Positions 20,093 to 33,234 of a DNA stretch of 34,519 nucleotides are shown here, one piece after another. The stretch covers positions 1 through 34,519 of the forward strand of contig JAGQKG010000013.1 of the NCBI GenBank assembly GCA_020430245.1, read 5' to 3'. The first letter of the stretch is position 1. Each line of letters opens with the position of its first letter. This DNA is from Nitrospira sp. (lineage in GTDB: Bacteria; Nitrospirota; Nitrospiria; Nitrospirales; UBA8639). Under the pieces are notes generated by a model. That model made no database searches and was not told where the DNA came from. It saw only the letters and a program-made list of their open reading frames with translations. Both the position numbers and the translations under genes were made by a program.

Positions 20093-20172
20093 CATCTCCA
20101 GGATATTGGGATGCCTTGTCATATGCGTAAGGGTTGTTTGCTCGATATAAACACTTATGGTAGGATTTTTTG

Positions 20173-22557
20173 ATGAGTATCTTCCCTAGTTCAAAGAGCA
20201 AGCCGACAAAAGATCAACCCAAGGGATTTTCTGTCTTAACCACACAAGTTGTGGGAATTTTAATCGCTACTTTGGGTATCCTGGGTTTGCTCAGTCTGGC
20301 AACATTTTCGCCTTCCGACACGACCCTTTTTGCCGAGCACCCTTCCTCAAATTCCGTTCCCGAAAACGCTGTGGGCCTGGTTGGGGCTACTCTCGCGTTT
20401 TCTCTCCTAACCATGGCGGGAGGGGGAGCCTATGTGGTGCCATTTTTGCTTATCCTGTTGGGGTTGAGCGTCCTATGGGGCGAAAATCTTCGTATTACAT
20501 TTGGAAGTTGTCTAGGATCGCTACTTGGTGTTCTATCTTTCAGCGCACTGCTCCATCTTCGATTTGCAGTCGGGCCTCAAGCATCATCCGAGATGAATGT
20601 CTTAGGGGTAAGCCAGGGTGGAATTGTGGGGGAATGGGTAGCGGCCGGACTCGGGTCCTATCTGGCGGTTACGGGTGCCACGATCATGTTGGGGGCACTA
20701 TTACTGATTGCCTTTCTTTTGCTCGTGCCGGTATCGATTGGGCAGATTGCTCGAACCCTCTTGAATTTCATCGGGCGCCTCAAAAATACCGTGGTGGAAT
20801 CGGTGAGGGAACGAGACTGGTGGGTATCAGACTCCCAGCCAAAAATGAATAAATCGATTCGGATTAATCGTCAATTGGCTGCTCGTGGTGGTATTGGTAC
20901 GATGGTATTGGAAAGTTTGGAACCCAAATCCAAGGTATGCAAGGTCAAAGGAGATGACCTCCCAGCCACAATCGAGATAGCGCCCACTCTCCCACTCATC
21001 GAGGAAGTCGATGACACTTTTATCTCTCGCAAGAAAATCTCAAAGTCCTATCAAATGCCTTCCCCCACGGATCTGCTGGACACTCATGCTGCGCGGGCGG
21101 CTCACCAGACCGATGCAGTCTTGAAATCTCAGTCCGAAGTCCTTGTGAACACGTTGGCAAGTTTTGGGATTGATGGGGGCGTCACGGATGTGCATCCCGG
21201 CCCGGTGATTACCATGTATGAGTTTGCTCCCGGTCCGGGCATCAAAGTCGCCCGTATTGTGAATTTGGCTGATGATCTGGCCATGGCTTTAAAAGCCTTA
21301 AAAGTTCGAGTGGTGGCCCCACTCCCAGGAAAATCCACCGTGGGGATTGAAGTGCCGAATCCTCAGCGCGAAACGGTTGGGTTGAAAGAAATGTTGACAT
21401 CGGAGGCCTTCACGCGGGCTCGCTCCAAGCTGGCCTTGGCCTTGGGGAAAGATATCTTTGGGCGCCCGGTGGTAGTGGATCTCCGTACCATGCCTCATTT
21501 ATTGGTAGCGGGTGCTACGGGGTCAGGAAAAAGTGTCGGACTGAACTGTCTGTTATTGAATATCCTATTTACCGCCCATCCCGATGAAGTGAAACTCCTG
21601 TTAATTGATCCCAAAGTGCTGGAATTACAGGTGTACGATGGGATTCCTCACCTTATTCGCCCGGTTATCACGAACCCCAAAGAAGCGGCTCGTGGGCTTG
21701 GTTGGGTCGTCCAAGAAATGGAGCGACGTTACCAGGTGTTAGCGGAATTGGGGGTTCGAAATATTGATGCCTATAATAAAAAAGTTACCGATTCTCAGGT
21801 GACAGGCTCTCCACTTCGAACCGTGAAAAAACTGAGCAAAGGCCAATCGATGAATATGGAGGAAGGGGCCCCCCTGTTGGAGCCTTCACAGGAAGAGCGG
21901 GTTCTGTTGCCTTACATCGTGGTGGTCATCGATGAGTTTGCCGATCTAATTATGGTGGCTCCTAAGGATATTGAAGATCGAATTGCCCGACTCGCCCAAA
22001 TGGCTCGTGCGTCAGGTATTCATCTCGTCTTGGCAACGCAAAGACCATCAGTTGATGTCGTGACTGGCCTGATAAAGGCTAATTTTCCTGCGCGAATCGC
22101 TTATCAGGTTTCTTCCAAGATTGATTCCCGGACCATTTTGGATGTGAATGGAGCAGAAAGTCTTTTGGGAAAAGGTGATATGCTGTTTTTATCTTCTGGC
22201 ACCGGTGGAATTAACAGGCTGCATGGTCCCTATGTTTCGGATGAGGAAGTGCGTGGAGTAGTTGAATGGGTGAAATCCCAAGCTACCCCTGTTTATGACC
22301 CGGTGGCCTTGGAGTCCGTGCAAGAATCCTCGGTGGATGAACAGGAACGTGATGAGACCTATGAGCGGGCCAGAGAATTGGTGATGGCCACTGGACAAGC
22401 CTCAGCCTCGTTTATTCAGCGTCGCTTACGGGTGGGATATCCACGGGCAGCCCGGATGATTGAACAAATGGAGGAAGAAGGCCTGGTGAGTGCCCCAGGG
22501 CGTGATGGGAGACGAGAGGTCCTCGCTCGAAGTAACGCCATTGCGGAGATAGGATGA
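20173..22557 (+). CDS. ftsK: DNA translocase FtsK
   Basis: FtsK couples chromosome dimer resolution and segregation to septum closure. The 794-residue protein has about four N-terminal membrane helices (VVGILIATLGILGLLSL and following), a short linker, and an FtsK/SpoIIIE motor. The motor has Walker A GATGSGKSVGLN near residue 446 and Walker B YIVVVIDEFADLIM near 585. The C-terminal winged-helix gamma domain (QASASFIQRRLRVGYPRAARMIEQMEEEGLV) reads KOPS-type sites. The linker is short compared with E. coli FtsK, as in many non-gammaproteobacteria. AGGA lies seven bases before ATG 20173. The stop codon overlaps the lolA start by four bases (ATGA). Confidence 0.97.
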   Translation: MSIFPSSKSKPTKDQPKGFSVLTTQVVGILIATLGILGLLSLATFSPSDTTLFAEHPSSNSVPENAVGLVGATLAFSLLTMAGGGAYVVPFLLILLGLSVLWGENLRITFGSCLGSLLGVLSFSALLHLRFAVGPQASSEMNVLGVSQGGIVGEWVAAGLGSYLAVTGATIMLGALLLIAFLLLVPVSIGQIARTLLNFIGRLKNTVVESVRERDWWVSDSQPKMNKSIRINRQLAARGGIGTMVLESLEPKSKVCKVKGDDLPATIEIAPTLPLIEEVDDTFISRKKISKSYQMPSPTDLLDTHAARAAHQTDAVLKSQSEVLVNTLASFGIDGGVTDVHPGPVITMYEFAPGPGIKVARIVNLADDLAMALKALKVRVVAPLPGKSTVGIEVPNPQRETVGLKEMLTSEAFTRARSKLALALGKDIFGRPVVVDLRTMPHLLVAGATGSGKSVGLNCLLLNILFTAHPDEVKLLLIDPKVLELQVYDGIPHLIRPVITNPKEAARGLGWVVQEMERRYQVLAELGVRNIDAYNKKVTDSQVTGSPLRTVKKLSKGQSMNMEEGAPLLEPSQEERVLLPYIVVVIDEFADLIMVAPKDIEDRIARLAQMARASGIHLVLATQRPSVDVVTGLIKANFPARIAYQVSSKIDSRTILDVNGAESLLGKGDMLFLSSGTGGINRLHGPYVSDEEVRGVVEWVKSQATPVYDPVALESVQESSVDEQERDETYERARELVMATGQASASFIQRRLRVGYPRAARMIEQMEEEGLVSAPGRDGRREVLARSNAIAEIG

Positions 22558-23246
22558 TGCTACTGCTGTTCCTGCGGCCGGCCCTTTTTCTAGCCATCGT
22601 TTGCTTGGTAATGATGCATGTATCCGATACTTCGGCCGCATCTGCTTCCGTTATGGAGGAAGTCGTTGGGAGAGTTGATGCTCGTTATGCTCAGACCAAG
22701 GATTTGCAAGCTGACTTTGTTCAGGAAACCACTTTTGAGGGATTTACGACTGGGTTTACGTCTTCAGGGCGGCTTTATTTAAAAAAACCTGGATTGCTTC
22801 GATGGGATTATCTTCACCCATCGGAAGAGCAGATTTATGTGAATGGTGATCGGGTGATGATGTATGTCCCTGAGCATCAGCAGGTGGTCAAAGGGACGCT
22901 TACGCAAATGGCTGCGTCCAAGGGTCCTCTAGCTCTTTTGCAGGGAGCAGGAAATCTTGCTCAGCAATTTACGATTCTGGAATCTGTAGATGGTTCGAAG
23001 GGTGAGGAAAAGTTCCCGAGTCTCACCCTAGTCCCTAAGCCTGTTGGCCAAACCCCTCCCACTATCAAGAAAATTGTACTCAAGCTCTTTCCTGATACGT
23101 ATTTCATTCAGGGTATTACCTTGTTTGAGGTGAGCGGGAATATCTCCCGTGTGATGTTTGACCATATTCAAGCGAATACGGGCCTTTCGTCCAGTCAGCT
23201 CACCTTCGATGTTCCGCCGGATGTAGTGGTGGTCGAACTGCCCTGA
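22554..23246 (+). CDS. lolA: Outer-membrane lipoprotein carrier protein LolA
   Basis: LolA carries lipoproteins across the periplasm from LolCDE to the outer membrane. The 230-residue protein has a signal peptide (LFLRPALFLAIVCLVMMHV, cleavage probably after SDTSAA). The LolA fold follows: RYAQTKDLQADFVQETTF, SGRLYLKKPGLLRWDY, then EQIYVNGDRVMMYVPEHQQV. The C-terminus ends in FDHIQANTGLSSSQLTFDVPPDVVVV. The ATGA overlap with ftsK indicates translational coupling. Presence of LolA implies a two-membrane cell with lipoproteins, consistent with the lipoproteins encoded nearby. Confidence 0.93.
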   Translation: MMLLLFLRPALFLAIVCLVMMHVSDTSAASASVMEEVVGRVDARYAQTKDLQADFVQETTFEGFTTGFTSSGRLYLKKPGLLRWDYLHPSEEQIYVNGDRVMMYVPEHQQVVKGTLTQMAASKGPLALLQGAGNLAQQFTILESVDGSKGEEKFPSLTLVPKPVGQTPPTIKKIVLKLFPDTYFIQGITLFEVSGNISRVMFDHIQANTGLSSSQLTFDVPPDVVVVELP

Positions 23247-23308: not shown

Positions 23309-23785
23309 ATGGCTGAGCGCATCTTGGTTGTGGATGATGACAAGGGGGTTCGGGAAGCCTTGTCAGAGTTCTTGCTATCATTGGGTTATAGCGTCGTGAT
23401 GGCCGAAAATGGTGAAGAGGCTTTGAAGCAATATCGTAAGGGTGACTTTGACGTGATTATGGCTGACTTGATTATGCCCAATATGGATGGAATGGAGTTA
23501 TTGAGGCGTATCCGGGACGGTAAACACGATGAGGTAATTTTTCTGATGATCACTGGGCATCCCTCTATTGGGACAGCTGTGGAGGCTATTAATCGTGGGG
23601 CTGATGATTATATTACCAAACCCTTCCATCTCGAAGATGTAAGGTTACGGGTAACGAAAGCGTTGGAAAAACAAACCTTAAAAGGCCGATTAAAAACAGC
23701 CCAAGGGTTGGCTTGGGGTTTAATGTTGTCTATTCCGCTTTGGCTACTTTTGGGAATAATTCTGGTTATCCTGTTTAAAGGATAA
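23309..23785 (+). CDS. Receiver-domain response regulator with C-terminal membrane anchor
   Basis: The 158-residue product is a complete CheY-like receiver. It has acidic pocket D9-D11, phosphoacceptor D53 (MADLIMPNMDG), T82 (MITGHP) and K104 (YITKPF), spanning about residues 1-122. After a short basic linker (LKGRLKTAQ) comes a hydrophobic helix at about 134-156 (LAWGLMLSIPLWLLLGIILVIL), ending FKG. No DNA-binding or enzymatic output domain is present. It should be a cytoplasmic receiver tethered to the inner membrane. It sits 62 bases after lolA, before a secreted protein. No histidine kinase is visible in the window. The receiver call is certain; the anchor is clear in sequence, but its purpose is inferred. 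Confidence 0.92.
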   Translation: MAERILVVDDDKGVREALSEFLLSLGYSVVMAENGEEALKQYRKGDFDVIMADLIMPNMDGMELLRRIRDGKHDEVIFLMITGHPSIGTAVEAINRGADDYITKPFHLEDVRLRVTKALEKQTLKGRLKTAQGLAWGLMLSIPLWLLLGIILVILFKG

Positions 23786-23867
23786 GTGGCTTTTTCTCCA
23801 GTGGTTCTTGTGTGGTTATTGCTCAATCGCCATTCCCAAATTCATTGTGAGCCTGTTGTCGTGGTTC

Positions 23868-24422
23868 ATGCGGATCTTACTGTGTGTTTTGGGTATTGTG
23901 GTGTTCGGTGCAAGCTCTCTTCAGGCCATTAGCGGTCACATCACTGAAGATCCCACCAAAATTTTACAGAAATATCTTTCCCTAGATAAAAAAGGCGTTC
24001 GGTTGGAGGCGCATTCCTGGCAGGTGGTGAGGCCATTTGTGGCTTGGCTGGAAGAACCGGTCTGGGGACACGTAGTCGTGATTTCTCAATATGAGGTTGT
24101 TGATGACGTGTCGCAATGGGAAATTTTGGGTGTATTAGATGCCAAAATTCCCGTGATGTTTGAGGTTTTAGGAACAATGCATTGGGAAAGCGTGACGTTT
24201 GTGCCAAATTCTCACCGAGAAATACAGTATTTTCAACTGAAGGCGGTTGGCGATCGGTGGCAAATTGTTGGGCCTCAATTGCCTCCACATGTGGGCCGTC
24301 AACGTCTGGTCGACTTTGTTCGTTGGGCGGAGGTCAATGAATCTATGCCCGAAAGAAAAACACTGCTCAATTCGTTAATACAACAATTAAAGCTTAATAA
24401 TGAGAAAGATGCTCAAAAATGA
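23868..24422 (+). CDS. Hypothetical secreted/periplasmic protein
   Basis: From ATG 23868 the product has 184 residues and opens with a signal peptide (MRILLCVLGIVVFGASSLQA, cleavage before ISGH). The mature part has a mixed helix/strand pattern with many tryptophans (HSWQVVRPFVAWLEEPVWGHVVVIS, MHWESVTFVP, DRWQIVGPQLPPHVG) and a charged tail. A longer frame from TTG 23808 has no ribosome site and would hide the signal peptide. The stop overlaps the next start by four bases (ATGA). The fold resembles none that I can name. Confidence 0.75.
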   Translation: MRILLCVLGIVVFGASSLQAISGHITEDPTKILQKYLSLDKKGVRLEAHSWQVVRPFVAWLEEPVWGHVVVISQYEVVDDVSQWEILGVLDAKIPVMFEVLGTMHWESVTFVPNSHREIQYFQLKAVGDRWQIVGPQLPPHVGRQRLVDFVRWAEVNESMPERKTLLNSLIQQLKLNNEKDAQK

Positions 24423-25066
24423 CTACTTGGCGTGCGGAAGTGTTGTTCTTTGACTTTGATGGGACTTTGATCGATTCGAAAATAGATATTGCCACGTCGG
24501 TAAACCTGACGCTGAAAGATTTGGGGTTGGCCTTACGATCGCGGGAAGAAATCTTTAGTTTCGTGGGTGATGGGGTGAAGCGGCTATTGCGGTTATCGGT
24601 TGGGGAAGAAAATCTTGATCAATATGAAAAAGCCTTGGAGGTTTTTCGAAAACATTATTTGGAGCATTGCGTGGAAACCACACGGTTTTATCCTGGGATT
24701 TGGGAAGTTCTTCATCACTATCAGGACCGAAGAAAAGCCATTGTGACCAACAAGTCCCTGGAGTATACCCTTTCAATTGTGGATGGATTACATGCACAGG
24801 ATCTCTTTCATCATGTCGAAGCTCCTCGGGATACGATGGAATTGAAACCAGAGCCGGTGATGTTGCTGCGGGCACTGGAGGGGTTGGGCGTCGATTCCTC
24901 TGAGACGGTGATGATTGGGGATAGTACGAATGATATTCGAGCAGCCCAGGCGGCGGGCATTCGAGCCTGTGCCGTGGGGTATGGGTATGGTAACCGGGAA
25001 AAAGTTGCAGCATTACGTCCTGACTTTTTTTGCGAAAATCCGAAAGATCTTCTTGGGTTGTTTTAA
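24419..25066 (+). CDS. gph: HAD-superfamily phosphatase, phosphoglycolate-phosphatase-like
   Basis: The 215-residue protein has all HAD motifs: FFDFDGTLIDSK (nucleophile D12, acid D14), motif II VTNKS, the motif III lysine in ELKPEP and motif IV MIGDSTNDIRAA. The helical cap between motifs I and II (NLTLKDLGLALRSREEIFSFVGDGVKRLL) is of the type found in Gph, which detoxifies 2-phosphoglycolate. It starts inside the stop of the preceding secreted-protein gene, so the two are translationally coupled. Substrate by homology only; related pyrophosphatases and other sugar phosphatases share these motifs. Confidence 0.9.
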   Translation: MTTWRAEVLFFDFDGTLIDSKIDIATSVNLTLKDLGLALRSREEIFSFVGDGVKRLLRLSVGEENLDQYEKALEVFRKHYLEHCVETTRFYPGIWEVLHHYQDRRKAIVTNKSLEYTLSIVDGLHAQDLFHHVEAPRDTMELKPEPVMLLRALEGLGVDSSETVMIGDSTNDIRAAQAAGIRACAVGYGYGNREKVAALRPDFFCENPKDLLGLF

Positions 25067-27543: not shown

Positions 27544-28545
27544 ATGAAAGAGTCTGAAGATACATTGACGGTCATAATTTTTCGTGGAGCTCGCTCAAAT
27601 CCTTGGCGCCTAAAATTCAGAAAGTCTCTTGTGAAATACGGAATGATTTTGGGGTTAATGTTGATACTCGTTCAGGGCGGGGTTATCGCGCATTATGTTT
27701 ACCAGTGGAGCCAACTCAGTGAATTAGGAGAAATAAAACAAGAACTCACGACTTCACGGGCTCGAACCAGCAATTTTTCTACAGAAGTAGATGGAATGAA
27801 AAGGCGGATGCTGGTGTTAGAGACTCTCAATCGGAAGCTTCAGACCATGTTTGGCCTTGAGGCAGATGAGATTCAGGGGTTGCCTTCTGGTCTTCCTGGA
27901 CAGGGAGGAGAAGAATTGCCTTTTGAGGAGATGCCATATGATGGGTTGCAAGAGGAGGCCTCCTGGGAGGTAAAGCCTTCAGTCGAAAATGCCAGGATTT
28001 CCCCAGAGGTCTCAGGTGTAAATTCGACCATGGATCGAAAAATAACCGAGATTAAGGCGGGGCTGGAGTGGCTAAATCAACAAACTGAATTGGAAAGCCA
28101 AATTCTGGAAGAACTTTCTGCTGCAGCTCAGAAAAAAGCTGATCAATGGGCCTCAATTCCTTCCATATGGCCAGTTAAAGGTGCTTTAACCTCAAAATTT
28201 GGCCCTCGCGTTTCTCCATTTACCGGTAAAAAAGCCTTACATGCGGGTATTGATATCGGTGCTCCTACTGGTACCGAGGTTCGGTCACCCGCAGCGGGAA
28301 AAGTTGTCGTAGCTGCCTATGACGGTCGAATGGGAAAGTTCATTCGCATCGACCACGGGTACGGCATCGAGACCACGTACGGGCATTTATCCAAAATCCA
28401 TGTGAAATATGGTGACAAAGTCCATAGAGGCGATCTTGTCGGCCTTGTTGGGAGTACAGGGAAGTTTTCGACTGGACCCCATCTTCACTATCAAGTGGCC
28501 GTAAATGATAGAGTTGTAGATCCTATCCATTACATTTTAGATTAG
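27544..28545 (+). CDS. Membrane-anchored M23 (LytM-type) peptidoglycan endopeptidase
   Basis: The 333-residue product has one N-terminal membrane helix (YGMILGLMLILVQGGVIAHYVY, about residues 33-54), a coiled-coil region (about 60-105 and 165-200) and a C-terminal M23 domain. The zinc ligands are H233 and D237 in HAGIDIG and the HLH motif at H313 and H315, with a catalytic-type histidine in TTYGHL. All are intact, so it should be active against peptide cross-links. It is probably periplasmic and involved in cell division or elongation. The coiled coil plus M23 layout resembles NlpD/EnvC-type proteins, though those with lost ligands only activate amidases. A hairpin follows about 110 bases downstream. 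Confidence 0.93.
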   Translation: MKESEDTLTVIIFRGARSNPWRLKFRKSLVKYGMILGLMLILVQGGVIAHYVYQWSQLSELGEIKQELTTSRARTSNFSTEVDGMKRRMLVLETLNRKLQTMFGLEADEIQGLPSGLPGQGGEELPFEEMPYDGLQEEASWEVKPSVENARISPEVSGVNSTMDRKITEIKAGLEWLNQQTELESQILEELSAAAQKKADQWASIPSIWPVKGALTSKFGPRVSPFTGKKALHAGIDIGAPTGTEVRSPAAGKVVVAAYDGRMGKFIRIDHGYGIETTYGHLSKIHVKYGDKVHRGDLVGLVGSTGKFSTGPHLHYQVAVNDRVVDPIHYILD

Positions 28546-28972: not shown

Positions 28973-29863
28973 ATGAGTCTCGATTATGTAAAATTCACGC
29001 CCGGTTTCGGAAAATTTATGCCAAAAGAGTATAGAGATATGGTCGAACATGGTCCATTTGGAAAAAAGACCTCGGTTTCGCAAGTGGGAACGTTTAAAGA
29101 GATCCTAGAGGAACATCCTATGTGTGCGGGGTGCGCGATGACGTTGTTTATCCGCTTGGCAATGATTGCATTTCCTAATCCAGAAGATACGATTACAGTT
29201 GGGACGGCTGGATGCGGGCGACTAGCTATTTCTCAGGCAGCTATTCCTTTTGTCTATGGAAATTACGGCGATCAAAATGGAGTGGCCAGTGGGTTGTCTC
29301 GTGGGCTTCGCTTAAGATTTGGAGATCGTCCCAAAGATGTTGTCGTAATGGCGGGTGATGGGGGAATGGCAGACATTGGTTTTGCTCAAACTTTGCATTC
29401 CTGGTTTCGAAAAGAAAAGTTTACGACTATCATGTTGGATAACGAAGTGTATGGAAATACCGGTGGTCAAGAAAGTGGAATGACCAACAAGGGCCAAGTT
29501 TTGAAGATGGCCCCTCTAGGGAAAAAATTTGAAAAGATGGATATGTTAGGAATGGCCAAGGTTGCAGGGTGTGCGTATGTGGCGACAGTAGTTCCCAATA
29601 ACCCAAGAAGAGTAGAAAGTGTCATTAAAAAAGCGGTCTTGATTGCACGGGAAGTGGGTCCAACGTATATCCAAGCCTATACCTCCTGTAATATTGAATA
29701 TGCAATTCCAACAGATAAAGTTATGGAAGATGCAAAAGATGTCGAGAATGATCGTTATGCATTTTCGGAATATCTTACAGACGAAGCCAAGCAGTATTTA
29801 GGGGAATTGTATGGGTACAAAGAATATCTCCCGAAGCCTGCGGCTGCAGTAACTAAAGGGTAA
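28973..29863 (+). CDS. forB: 2-oxoacid:ferredoxin oxidoreductase, beta subunit
   Basis: This subunit binds thiamine diphosphate and a [4Fe-4S] cluster and carries out the 2-oxoacid chemistry (pyruvate or 2-oxoglutarate synthase). In 296 residues the cluster cysteines are C51, C54 (HPMCAGCA), C81 (AGCGR) and C239 (TSCN). The thiamine-pyrophosphate motif is GDGGMADIG (D129) with N157 in NEVYGNTGGQ. A GGAGGAGG site lies upstream of ATG 28973. It opens a five-gene operon in the order beta, gamma, delta, epsilon, alpha, like the five-subunit For/Por complexes of Hydrogenobacter used in the reductive TCA cycle. The symbol follows that usage; substrate (pyruvate versus 2-oxoglutarate) cannot be told here. 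Confidence 0.93.
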   Translation: MSLDYVKFTPGFGKFMPKEYRDMVEHGPFGKKTSVSQVGTFKEILEEHPMCAGCAMTLFIRLAMIAFPNPEDTITVGTAGCGRLAISQAAIPFVYGNYGDQNGVASGLSRGLRLRFGDRPKDVVVMAGDGGMADIGFAQTLHSWFRKEKFTTIMLDNEVYGNTGGQESGMTNKGQVLKMAPLGKKFEKMDMLGMAKVAGCAYVATVVPNNPRRVESVIKKAVLIAREVGPTYIQAYTSCNIEYAIPTDKVMEDAKDVENDRYAFSEYLTDEAKQYLGELYGYKEYLPKPAAAVTKG

Positions 29864-29946
29864 TGATCTACCCTAAGATTTTGTATACTTGGTTTGGATG
29901 CCCTTACTACCCTTACCTTGACAAGGTATGAAAATGGAGGTTGAAA

Positions 29947-30669
29947 ATGGCTATTCGTTATAACATTCGTATGGCAGGAGTTGGTGGTCAGGGCGTGGTG
30001 ACTGCATCCCACATCTTTAGCACAGCGGTCATTAATGCTGGAGGGGAGAGCACAATCGTTCCGTTTTATGGGTCTGAAAAGCGAATGGCTCCTGTGGAAA
30101 GTTATGTGCGTGTTTCGAATGAGCCAATATATGAAATTGGAGAAATTACCTTTCCCCACATTCTCATGGTCTTTCATCCACAGTGCATCACTCATGGAAA
30201 GAGTTACACGAATCCTTTTTATTATGGGTTAAAAAAGGAGGGCGTCGTTCTCATCAATAGCAATACACCGATGAATCTTGATCCGGATCAAGCTGCGGAA
30301 TTGAAAGACCTCAATGCGAAAATATATTACATTCCAGCTACCCAGATGTCGTTAGATGTGGCGGGAATTGATTTGGCCACCAATATGGCGATGGTTGGGG
30401 CGATCGGGGCCATTACGGGGCTTTCAGACTTAGAGGCTACGGGTACAGCGGTGAAAGATCGATTTCTCGGAAAAGGATTTGTGGTGTCAGGTGGAACTGC
30501 TGCATTGGACAGTGTGGTGGAAAGAAAGTTTAAAAAGAAAGCAGAGCTCATTGAGAAAAATTTGGCCGTAGTGAAAGCGGCGTGGGATTATGCCATCGAG
30601 CATGGATGGTCTGCAGGAGGTTCCTCAATGGCCGACCAAACAGCTGCTGCAGCGAAGGCTTCGGTCTAA
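29947..30669 (+). CDS. forG: 2-oxoacid:ferredoxin oxidoreductase, gamma subunit
   Basis: The 240-residue product shows the gamma-subunit signature near the N-terminus: AGVGGQGVVTASHIFSTAVI (GxGGQG at about 11-16), then PFYGSEKRMAPVESYVRVS. This subunit supports coenzyme and substrate binding in the complex. ATG 29947 has GGAGG six bases upstream; a TTG two codons earlier is inferior. It lies 83 bases after the beta gene in the same operon. The C-terminus is rich in Ala and Ser (SSMADQTAAAAKASV). Confidence 0.92.
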   Translation: MAIRYNIRMAGVGGQGVVTASHIFSTAVINAGGESTIVPFYGSEKRMAPVESYVRVSNEPIYEIGEITFPHILMVFHPQCITHGKSYTNPFYYGLKKEGVVLINSNTPMNLDPDQAAELKDLNAKIYYIPATQMSLDVAGIDLATNMAMVGAIGAITGLSDLEATGTAVKDRFLGKGFVVSGGTAALDSVVERKFKKKAELIEKNLAVVKAAWDYAIEHGWSAGGSSMADQTAAAAKASV

Positions 30670-30696
30670 AAACGGGGGAATTGAAAGGGGAGAGCG

Positions 30697-31020
30697 ATGT
30701 ATCTTGTTGCGAATATAGATATAGATATTTGTGCTGCAACCAGCTGTAAGTTGTGTACCCAATATTGTCCAGAAGCCAATACGATTCAGTATGATACGGA
30801 GGCGGGAAAGGACAGGGGGTTAAAGTACGGATCGGCTTATGTAGCCGTAGATCGTTGTAAGGGTTGCGCACAATGCGTTTGGGTGTGTGACAACATGGCC
30901 AAGCATCATGCTATTAAAATGGAAATGATCGATCAAATCGGAGATGCGGCACTCACTGAAAATATTTCCTACTTGGAAAAAAATACCAAAGCGGTCCTTG
31001 CTAGTCCGCTTAAGGGATAA
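30697..31020 (+). CDS. forD: 2-oxoacid:ferredoxin oxidoreductase, ferredoxin-like delta subunit
   Basis: The 107-residue protein is predicted to hold two [4Fe-4S] clusters and pass electrons to or from ferredoxin. The second set is the classic CxxCxxCxxxC (C54, C57, C60, C64). The first set is C12, C17, C20 and C24 followed by proline, so its first spacing is four residues instead of two. It follows the gamma gene by 27 bases with a strong AAAGGGGAG site. The gene position and size match the delta subunit of five-subunit complexes. Confidence 0.9.
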   Translation: MYLVANIDIDICAATSCKLCTQYCPEANTIQYDTEAGKDRGLKYGSAYVAVDRCKGCAQCVWVCDNMAKHHAIKMEMIDQIGDAALTENISYLEKNTKAVLASPLKG

Positions 31021-31076
31021 TCTGACAAAACCTTTTCATTCTCCAGTTATTTCATACTCATCAATCGGAGTCCAAC

Positions 31077-31838
31077 GTGGAATTAACGAAAGAGTTAGAA
31101 GAAGCAATCGTGGCTCCAGGGCCACAAGGTTTCCATCCTCCATCAGCTGCAGAGCTAGGTGTACTTCCCCCAGACTCGGGAATGGGCCTCAAATTCGGGC
31201 ATATTGTTGAGGAAGAACGAGCTATGGAAGCTATGGCGCATTCGATGTTCACAAGGAAAAATGCCACCATCTTCCCTGGGCCGATGGTTTTATGGGCTTG
31301 GAACGACCATGCTGCTGATAAGGCGAAGGCGGTTTTGGAGTTAGCGGCCCAAATTCCTGATGTATTAATAATTCCAATGCCAGACTACAGACCAAAGTAT
31401 CCAAAGGTTGAGCCAGAAGAAGTCATCAACCCTAATCATCCCAATCTCACTATTTGGGGGAATAAGATTGAAGCCTGTATTTTTATTGGTGTGCACTGTC
31501 ACTATGCCAATTTGACCCTCAAGATGATTCGAGCCGGAACCAACTGCTGGACTTCTGCTATTTGCGCGGAACAAGGACATGAGGATGCCATGTTCACCGT
31601 TCGAGATTCTGATGCGGCAAAGATCCGAAGGGCCGCAGCGGTCTTTAAGAGGGTGCGGGAAGAAATGGGGATTAAATTGCCAGAAGATAGCAATAATGTT
31701 CGTTTTACTGGATTACAATCAAGAGTCCATGGCGGCAAAACTCACACCAATCCCCTGGATTTCAGTATAGAAAGTCCTGTTGATGGAAACGCGGCAGCGT
31801 TTGGCCATAAAGCTGAACATATGCAAAAAGAAGCATGA
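31077..31838 (+). CDS. forE: 2-oxoacid:ferredoxin oxidoreductase, epsilon-type accessory subunit (CODH-beta-like family)
   Basis: This 253-residue protein has no iron-sulfur or thiamine motif. It starts at GTG 31077 with a CGGAG site six bases upstream. Sequence segments such as FGHIVEEERAMEAMAHSMF and TIFPGPMVLWAWNDHA, together with its place in the operon, match the fifth subunit of Hydrogenobacter-type For/Por enzymes, a family databases often label carbon monoxide dehydrogenase beta-subunit-like. Its biochemical role in the complex is not established. The cysteines are spread out (ACIFIGVHCHYA, NCWTSAICAEQG). The operon role is confident; the function is not. Confidence 0.85.
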   Translation: MELTKELEEAIVAPGPQGFHPPSAAELGVLPPDSGMGLKFGHIVEEERAMEAMAHSMFTRKNATIFPGPMVLWAWNDHAADKAKAVLELAAQIPDVLIIPMPDYRPKYPKVEPEEVINPNHPNLTIWGNKIEACIFIGVHCHYANLTLKMIRAGTNCWTSAICAEQGHEDAMFTVRDSDAAKIRRAAAVFKRVREEMGIKLPEDSNNVRFTGLQSRVHGGKTHTNPLDFSIESPVDGNAAAFGHKAEHMQKEA

Positions 31839-31881
31839 GCAAGTTTTTGAATTTTCACTTCAGTCATAAGGGGGTAAAACC

Positions 31882-33234
31882 ATGAGCGAAGCTCTTGAAT
31901 CGGAAGTTAAAACAAATCCCCAAGGTGATCCAATTACCAGTGCGCCAGAAGCACCATCCGTTGATAGCTCAAAGGGAAGAAAAGACCCTCATGGAGATGC
32001 CAAACGCCAGAGGGAAGTTTCTCCGGAATATATGTTTTTTGAGGCTCCTCGTGAGCGGGAGTTTATTACCGGGAGTGAATGTGCGAAAGAGGCGGTGAGG
32101 CGATCAAATGTGGATATGTCTGTGGCCTATCCCATTACCCCACAAAGCGAAACATTGCAATTAATTGGGGTCTTGTATGGGGAAGGGTATGTGAAGGAAT
32201 TCTATCGGGGTGAAGAAGAATATGGCGTCATGTCGGCAATTGCCGGGGCTTCGCGCGCAGGTGTTCGAGCTTTTACGGCCACAGCTGGTCCTGGGACATT
32301 ACGAGGTCTTGAGCCCATCGTCTCGTGGGCTGGTCACCGTCTCCCTGCCGTTTGCATGTTTACATGCAGAGTTGTCAATGCTCCGCTGGCAATCCAACCC
32401 GATAATATTGAAATTGCCTATCTTTTGAACAGCGGAATGCTGGTATTTCATGCTGAAAATCAACAGGACCTGTTCGATTTTATCATGAAAGGCTTTATTA
32501 TCAGTGAAAAAAATGATGTGACGCTCCCCGTAGGTGTTTGCTGTGATGGTTTTTTTGTAACTCATGCTCGGGGATATTGTGCGATGCCGGATCGTGGTCT
32601 TAAGCTCCCAGGTCGAGATCCTTACCGAGGGTCGGTACCGGTCTTGGATGCGGAGAACCCTCCAGCTCGATTGTCTCGTGATGCTCCCGTTCAAAAATCC
32701 AATTTTATGGCCTACAACATTCACGCGGTGTGGCAGCAGGAAGTATGGGCTGGCGTGGAACGTTCACGGAAATATATTAATCAATATATGGATGGGTTGT
32801 TGGAAGCTCAGGATGTGGAAGACGCAGATGTCCTCCTAATTGCATCGGGGAGTGCAGCGGCTCAATCCCGCGAAGCGGTCCGCCAATGTAAGGAAAAGGG
32901 GATTAAGGCAGGATTGATTAAGATTCGCTCCTTGCGACCTTTCCCAACAAATGAACTAAGAGAGCTGTGTGGGAAAGCCAAGCTTATTGTCATTCCCGAG
33001 TTTAATTATGTCGGATGGTTAGCTAAGGATGTGGCTACGGCAATTTATGGGTTTTCCAACGCAAAAATTGTGGCTGGTCCACATGTCTACGGTGGAATGT
33101 CTATGCCAGTTGAGATGATTACGGATGAAGTGGAATGTGGGTTAACCGGTAAGAAGTCGAACACGGTTCCAGAGTCTCATATTATGGGAACAGTTGATCC
33201 AGCAGCGGTGGCTCAATTTATGAAGAGCATTTAA
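31882..33234 (+). CDS. forA: 2-oxoacid:ferredoxin oxidoreductase, alpha subunit
   Basis: The 450-residue alpha subunit has the conserved YPITPQSETLQ motif (83-93) of the pyrimidine-binding domain. Further conserved segments are EFYRGEEEYGVMSAIAGASRAG and the C-terminal transketolase-like domain (DVLLIASGSAAAQSREAV, then SLRPFPTNEL). Residues 1 to about 57 are a low-complexity, Pro/Ser/Lys/Glu-rich extension before the catalytic fold. A GGGGG ribosome site precedes ATG 31882. It is the last gene of the operon and is followed 29 bases later by a strong terminator. Confidence 0.94.
   Translation: MSEALESEVKTNPQGDPITSAPEAPSVDSSKGRKDPHGDAKRQREVSPEYMFFEAPREREFITGSECAKEAVRRSNVDMSVAYPITPQSETLQLIGVLYGEGYVKEFYRGEEEYGVMSAIAGASRAGVRAFTATAGPGTLRGLEPIVSWAGHRLPAVCMFTCRVVNAPLAIQPDNIEIAYLLNSGMLVFHAENQQDLFDFIMKGFIISEKNDVTLPVGVCCDGFFVTHARGYCAMPDRGLKLPGRDPYRGSVPVLDAENPPARLSRDAPVQKSNFMAYNIHAVWQQEVWAGVERSRKYINQYMDGLLEAQDVEDADVLLIASGSAAAQSREAVRQCKEKGIKAGLIKIRSLRPFPTNELRELCGKAKLIVIPEFNYVGWLAKDVATAIYGFSNAKIVAGPHVYGGMSMPVEMITDEVECGLTGKKSNTVPESHIMGTVDPAAVAQFMKSI

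Follow-up and report, generated by a model that had tools for sequence, protein, structure and literature searches.

What can a receiver domain do when the only thing that follows it is a predicted membrane helix? Response regulator receivers signal almost always via soluble output domains or soluble contacts. The question is raised by a short gene between lolA and a gene for a secreted-type protein in Nitrospira sp. (GenBank assembly GCA_020430245.1), on contig JAGQKG010000013.1, of which the forward strand, positions 1 to 34,519, was analyzed (34,519 nucleotides; hereafter, the window). The original prediction, made from the letters of this DNA, described an intact receiver tethered to the membrane by its own C-terminal helix and suggested a phosphate sink, gating of a membrane protein, or local signaling. 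As we show below, no other part of the protein is as conserved as this helix. We put at about an even chance the reading that the receiver is tail-anchored and signals through its own membrane helix, which would act as a phosphorylation-switched lever on a specific membrane partner or on itself.

An intact receiver with a hydrophobic tail

Pfam reports Response_reg (PF00072) as the sole domain of the protein (residues 5–115, E-value 5.7e-30, 104 bits, 110 of the 111 profile positions). The catalytic set is complete, with an acidic cluster (D9-D10-D11), the phospho-acceptor D53, T82, and K104, the last three as originally described. D9, D10, D53, T82, and K104 are invariant in a 22-member family alignment, as is H84. 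Every residue that phosphorylation, presumably by a histidine kinase, would require is in place. A purine-rich stretch precedes the ATG of the gene.

C-terminal of the receiver, the protein consists of a basic stretch, a strongly hydrophobic segment, two residues, and the stop. The claim that the helix at residues 134–156 is the sole output thus agrees with the sequence, in that nothing else follows the receiver and the 19-residue hydropathy reaches a peak of 2.82 (starting at residue 138; 138–156). The protein is therefore not purely a stand-alone receiver. It also lacks the AAA+ ATPase and DNA-binding domain of NtrC-family sigma-54 activators, given that it ends at residue 158 and that Response_reg is the only Pfam domain. 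A single C-terminal transmembrane segment with basic residues on the receiver side is what is expected of a tail-anchored protein, and the positive-inside rule, applied to the basic linker (124–133), predicts that the receiver side is cytoplasmic. The tail sequence is single-copy in the window's genome, and neither the other short receivers fetched from that genome nor the GTDB loci retrieved by receiver similarity have a C-terminal membrane helix. Genome G034 carries two copies of the receiver gene (G034:C155 and G034:C55), each 94% identical to that of the window, which could represent a duplication or a mixed bin.

Conservation is highest in the helix

The same layout was sought in all 49 available genomes of the family, and full-length orthologues with the same tail (68–98% identity) were recovered from 31 of them, representing 8 of the 10 genera. 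Thirty of these sequences were aligned, with G015 making 31. A frameshift at the helix, a concern attached to the original prediction, or an artefact of assembly is ruled out because all 30 aligned homologues, and G015/L148 as well, share the tail and the position of the stop.

Among the 30 orthologues, 19 of the 23 positions of helix 134–156 are invariant, versus 48 of 118 in the receiver, and between genera the helix has an amino acid identity of 0.914. The corresponding values for the receiver are 0.644 (N-terminal half) and 0.810 (C-terminal part), and that for the linker is 0.758. G133, W136, G137, S141, P143, W145, and G149 are unchanged in 31 of 31 sequences, as are Leu residues at eight positions (134, 138, 140, 144, 146, 147, 148, and 152); passive anchors usually vary among Leu, Ile, and Val. 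Within this set is the invariant motif G133xxxG137xxxS141 (GxxxGxxxS; small-xxx-small-xxx-small), of which G133 lies just before the helix. The use of identical codons for unchanged residues is lowest in the helix (0.306). Because synonymous codons vary freely there while the residues stay the same, the constraint must act on the protein rather than on the DNA. The same measure, with synonymous variation highest in this region, rules out that the tail is constant on account of an overlapping gene or a regulatory site.

As controls, the membrane helices of two other proteins encoded in the window, FtsK and an M23 peptidase, were measured across 16 matched genomes. Mean pairwise identity is 0.925 for the tail helix versus 0.725 for its own receiver, whereas it is 0.42–0.50 for the four FtsK helices and 0.55 for the M23 peptidase helix. 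Each control helix is less conserved than the average of its own protein, and the tail helix exceeds its receiver. These results support a sequence-specific job for the helix, and therefore either a membrane partner or precise self-pairing.

If precise self-pairing were the whole job, the protein could be a membrane landing pad, in which the self-associating helix fixes a receiver dimer and the phosphorylated receiver recruits a soluble effector. GxxxGxxxS is a classic self-packing pattern, familiar from studies of membrane proteins, and is invariant here; moreover, a large part of the receiver is itself conserved (the 48 positions noted above). However, self-packing usually constrains a single face of a helix rather than nearly all of its positions, and we know of no effector, so we regard this explanation as rather improbable. 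Far more improbable is a passive anchor or decayed NtrC-type regulator, left with a functionless hydrophobic tail after the loss of the ATPase and DNA-binding domains. Descent by such a loss is plausible, as the nearest receivers are those of the NtrC family, but the gene has been kept in 8 genera with all of its catalytic residues, a near-invariant tail, and selection at the protein level.

The other doubt raised at the outset, that the helix might belong to some larger output domain already known, was rejected: the tail is without a match in Pfam, NCBIfam, or plasmid sequences, and about 300 genomes from elsewhere in the phylum, outside the family, yielded no convincing relative of it. The other family of the order has small proteins of 94–112 amino acids (L128, L135, L140, and L141) with a C-terminal helix whose pattern resembles the tail of the receiver (ARGIVNGLRLSVTLW vs. 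AQGLAWGLMLSIPLW; 33%–41% over about 27 residues, with GxxxGxxxS and then LW), although they lack a receiver and the per-genome E-values are 0.02–0.5. This similarity is weak, and possibly a matter of chance or convergence.

Search for a cognate kinase

No histidine kinase was seen among the open reading frames of the window, as had been stated originally, and there is none in the conserved run of genes around the receiver. A cognate kinase was sought through its distribution by comparing the histidine-kinase regions of receiver carriers (G015, G027) with those of noncarriers (G013, G018), using a motif filter that kept 18, 19, 9, and 12 kinases and may miss some. A single kinase had a fitting distribution in this four-genome screen (G015 623480–624946). 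It is missing from genera g2 and g6, and also from the receiver carriers G017 and G020 (95%–98% complete). Its gene in the window's genome is the first of a row (L310 1–2961, G000:C399) that continues with a gene for a small secreted protein and one for an NtrC-type regulator, and that we take to resemble the GlrK-QseG-GlrR cluster of enterobacteria. Given its absence from G017 and G020 and its place beside an NtrC-type regulator of its own, we rejected it as the sole partner. It is possible that the cognate kinase is one of those conserved in all four screened genomes. The alpha1 specificity set of the receiver, GVALFL, is shared by none of the sampled paralogues, which may be a weak hint of a separate pathway.

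The kinase results bear on the phosphate sink of the original prediction, here taken as a receiver that is bound to a single sensor kinase at its membrane portion and either drains its phosphoryl flow as a sink or inhibits it. Receiver-only kinase inhibitors have been described (PMC12471899), and the receiver is complete; since sensor kinases are often membrane proteins, their helices could be what the tail helix contacts. Yet a mere anchor would suffice for a sink, and conservation is higher in the helix than in the receiver; furthermore, the conserved run is without a kinase gene, and the sole family-restricted kinase that was found is missing from two near-complete genomes that carry the receiver. 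We consider a sink of this kind unlikely, though the strongest of the alternatives. Of the functions first suggested, the near-invariant helix thus makes gating of a membrane protein more likely, and a pure phosphate sink less so.

A possible path from phosphorylation to the membrane

AlphaFold2, run on the family alignment, returned a receiver fold and one unbroken helix from residue 108 to residue 157 (mean predicted local distance difference test score, pLDDT, 86). The best profile matches in the PDB are to NtrC1 of Aquifex aeolicus (1zy2, 4l4u, 1ny5), with the alignment continuing through linker residue 126, and DctD (1qkk) was matched too. When structures are compared, ordinary receivers (PhoP, CheY4, YycF) rank first, and NtrC1 and NtrX align over more columns (124–132). 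As modeled, the protein has a receiver with the long alpha5-linker helix of the NtrC1/DctD type.

An unbroken helix would give phosphorylation of the receiver a direct route to the membrane segment. In the lever reading, a sensor kinase would phosphorylate D53, and this would alter the pairing of receivers with one another, as in receivers of the NtrC1/DctD type. The changed pairing would shift the long alpha5-linker helix and, through it, the membrane segment. By its GxxxGxxxS face, this segment would pack against either a specific membrane partner or a second copy of itself, and a membrane protein would thereby be switched on or off. Three other readings have weak support by comparison: that the helix is a passive anchor, that it arose by chance, and that the gene neighbors imply a role in the envelope (see below).

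Several points weigh against this reading. A homodimer without any partner could give equally strong conservation, and the insertion of the helix into the membrane is predicted from its sequence. The unbroken helix rests on a model of the monomer, in which pLDDT is lowest (about 75) at residues 121–140. Neither the window nor the four-genome distribution screen, with a family-wide check of its one candidate, yielded a cognate kinase, and no membrane partner protein was identified, no full distribution-based search for partners having been made. We propose only tentatively, and with a little less confidence than the lever itself, that the receiver, once phosphorylated, uses a specific transmembrane helix to act directly as a regulatory subunit of a membrane complex, without a soluble output domain. 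If it does, phosphorylation would be passed straight into the membrane, so that a membrane protein could be controlled quickly and locally with no need for transcription. Conservation across the family points to D53, G133, G137, S141, and P143 as the residues of interest, and it offers a handle on the partner.

Gene neighborhood and history in the family

The position of the gene, with lolA before it, ftsK before lolA, and a secreted-type protein after it, is as originally read in the window (Table 1). The order ftsK-lolA-receiver-secreted protein-gph is found in 29 of 30 loci; in the remaining one (L090) the contig stops after the receiver.

Table 1. Coordinates in the window of the receiver gene, the parts of its product, and the adjoining genes
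Feature	Position	Strand	Basis
ftsK, start of conserved run	20170..22557	+	ORF list, Pfam, loci comparison
lolA (PF03548), upstream neighbor; 4-base overlap with end of ftsK	22554..23246	+	Pfam, loci comparison
Receiver-plus-membrane-helix gene, 158 aa, stop included	23309..23785	+	ORF and translation
Receiver domain (PF00072), residues 5–115	23321..23653	+	Pfam; D9-D11, D53, T82, K104, H84
Predicted continuous helix, receiver alpha5 to C-terminus, residues 108–157	23630..23779	+	AlphaFold2
Basic juxtamembrane linker, residues 124–133, LKGRLKTAQG	23678..23707	+	Sequence; inference
Predicted transmembrane helix, residues 134–156, LAWGLMLSIPLWLLLGIILVILF	23708..23776	+	Hydropathy, alignment
Secreted-type protein, no known family, downstream neighbor; alternative TTG start at 23808	23868..24422	+	ORF list, loci comparison
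HAD-type phosphatase, gph-like (named by inspection), end of conserved run	24419..25066	+	Loci comparison

The control of the envelope that this order had seemed to hint at is weakly supported, because the same pairings occur without the receiver. No gene separates lolA from that of the secreted protein in the receiver-less genomes G014 and G018 (in G013, of g2, the two are apart), and in the order's other family ftsK and lolA are found together without a receiver, with lolA and the secreted protein-gph pair at different places. Given that lolA and the secreted protein pair without the receiver, the neighbors do not settle which target is controlled. The secreted protein is without a match in Pfam or NCBIfam and is conserved in both families of the order; in the other family it travels with gph, adjoining genes for pyruvate kinase and an M16 peptidase. 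Farther along the window, the gene for the membrane-anchored M23 peptidase (27544–28545, +) follows the receiver gene within a few kilobases in several genomes and is distant in others (G015, G028). Genes at 28973–33234 (+) read as a multi-subunit 2-oxoacid:ferredoxin oxidoreductase, of the type used in the reverse citric acid cycle, which would be in keeping with a relative of Nitrospira.

The receiver gene is absent from 14 genomes of genus g2 and from one of g6. In a tree of FtsK, the lineages without the gene nest inside the family, and carriers are found on both sides of its first fork. The simplest history is that the gene is ancestral, with a single gain before the family split and two subsequent losses. 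Because the genomes of g2 and g6 are small and have few receivers, the losses may reflect a wider shrinkage of signaling. No orthologue was found in the order's other family, in which the nearest matches are NtrC-type regulators of about 463 amino acids.

Comparison with known systems

The closest likeness is to NtrC1 and DctD, in which alpha5 runs into a long linker helix, as in the model of the window protein. In NtrC1, a single long helix comprises alpha5 and the linker, and the receiver interface is disrupted on phosphorylation (PMC4878744). The DctD receiver, according to the title of a work cited in PMC4395418, chooses between two dimeric states. H84, as read from the sequence, appears to match by position the histidine of NtrC1 that moves on activation. 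NtrC1 and DctD, however, proceed to an AAA+ ATPase and a DNA-binding domain, whereas the helix of the window protein is predicted to enter the membrane, where the protein ends.

In the literature searched, with subscription papers outside its scope, we found no phrase for a membrane-anchored, tail-anchored, or transmembrane response regulator. A census of archaea does describe response regulators with a membrane-anchored output domain, MetOD3 (PMC5847659). These join a receiver to a membrane-anchored output, like the window protein, a likeness at the level of description. Finally, the window protein shares with the single-domain receivers CheY, Spo0F, and DivK the lack of an enzymatic or DNA-binding output, and for all of these the output is presumably via protein contacts; CheY, Spo0F, and DivK are soluble, whereas the window protein carries a conserved predicted transmembrane helix.
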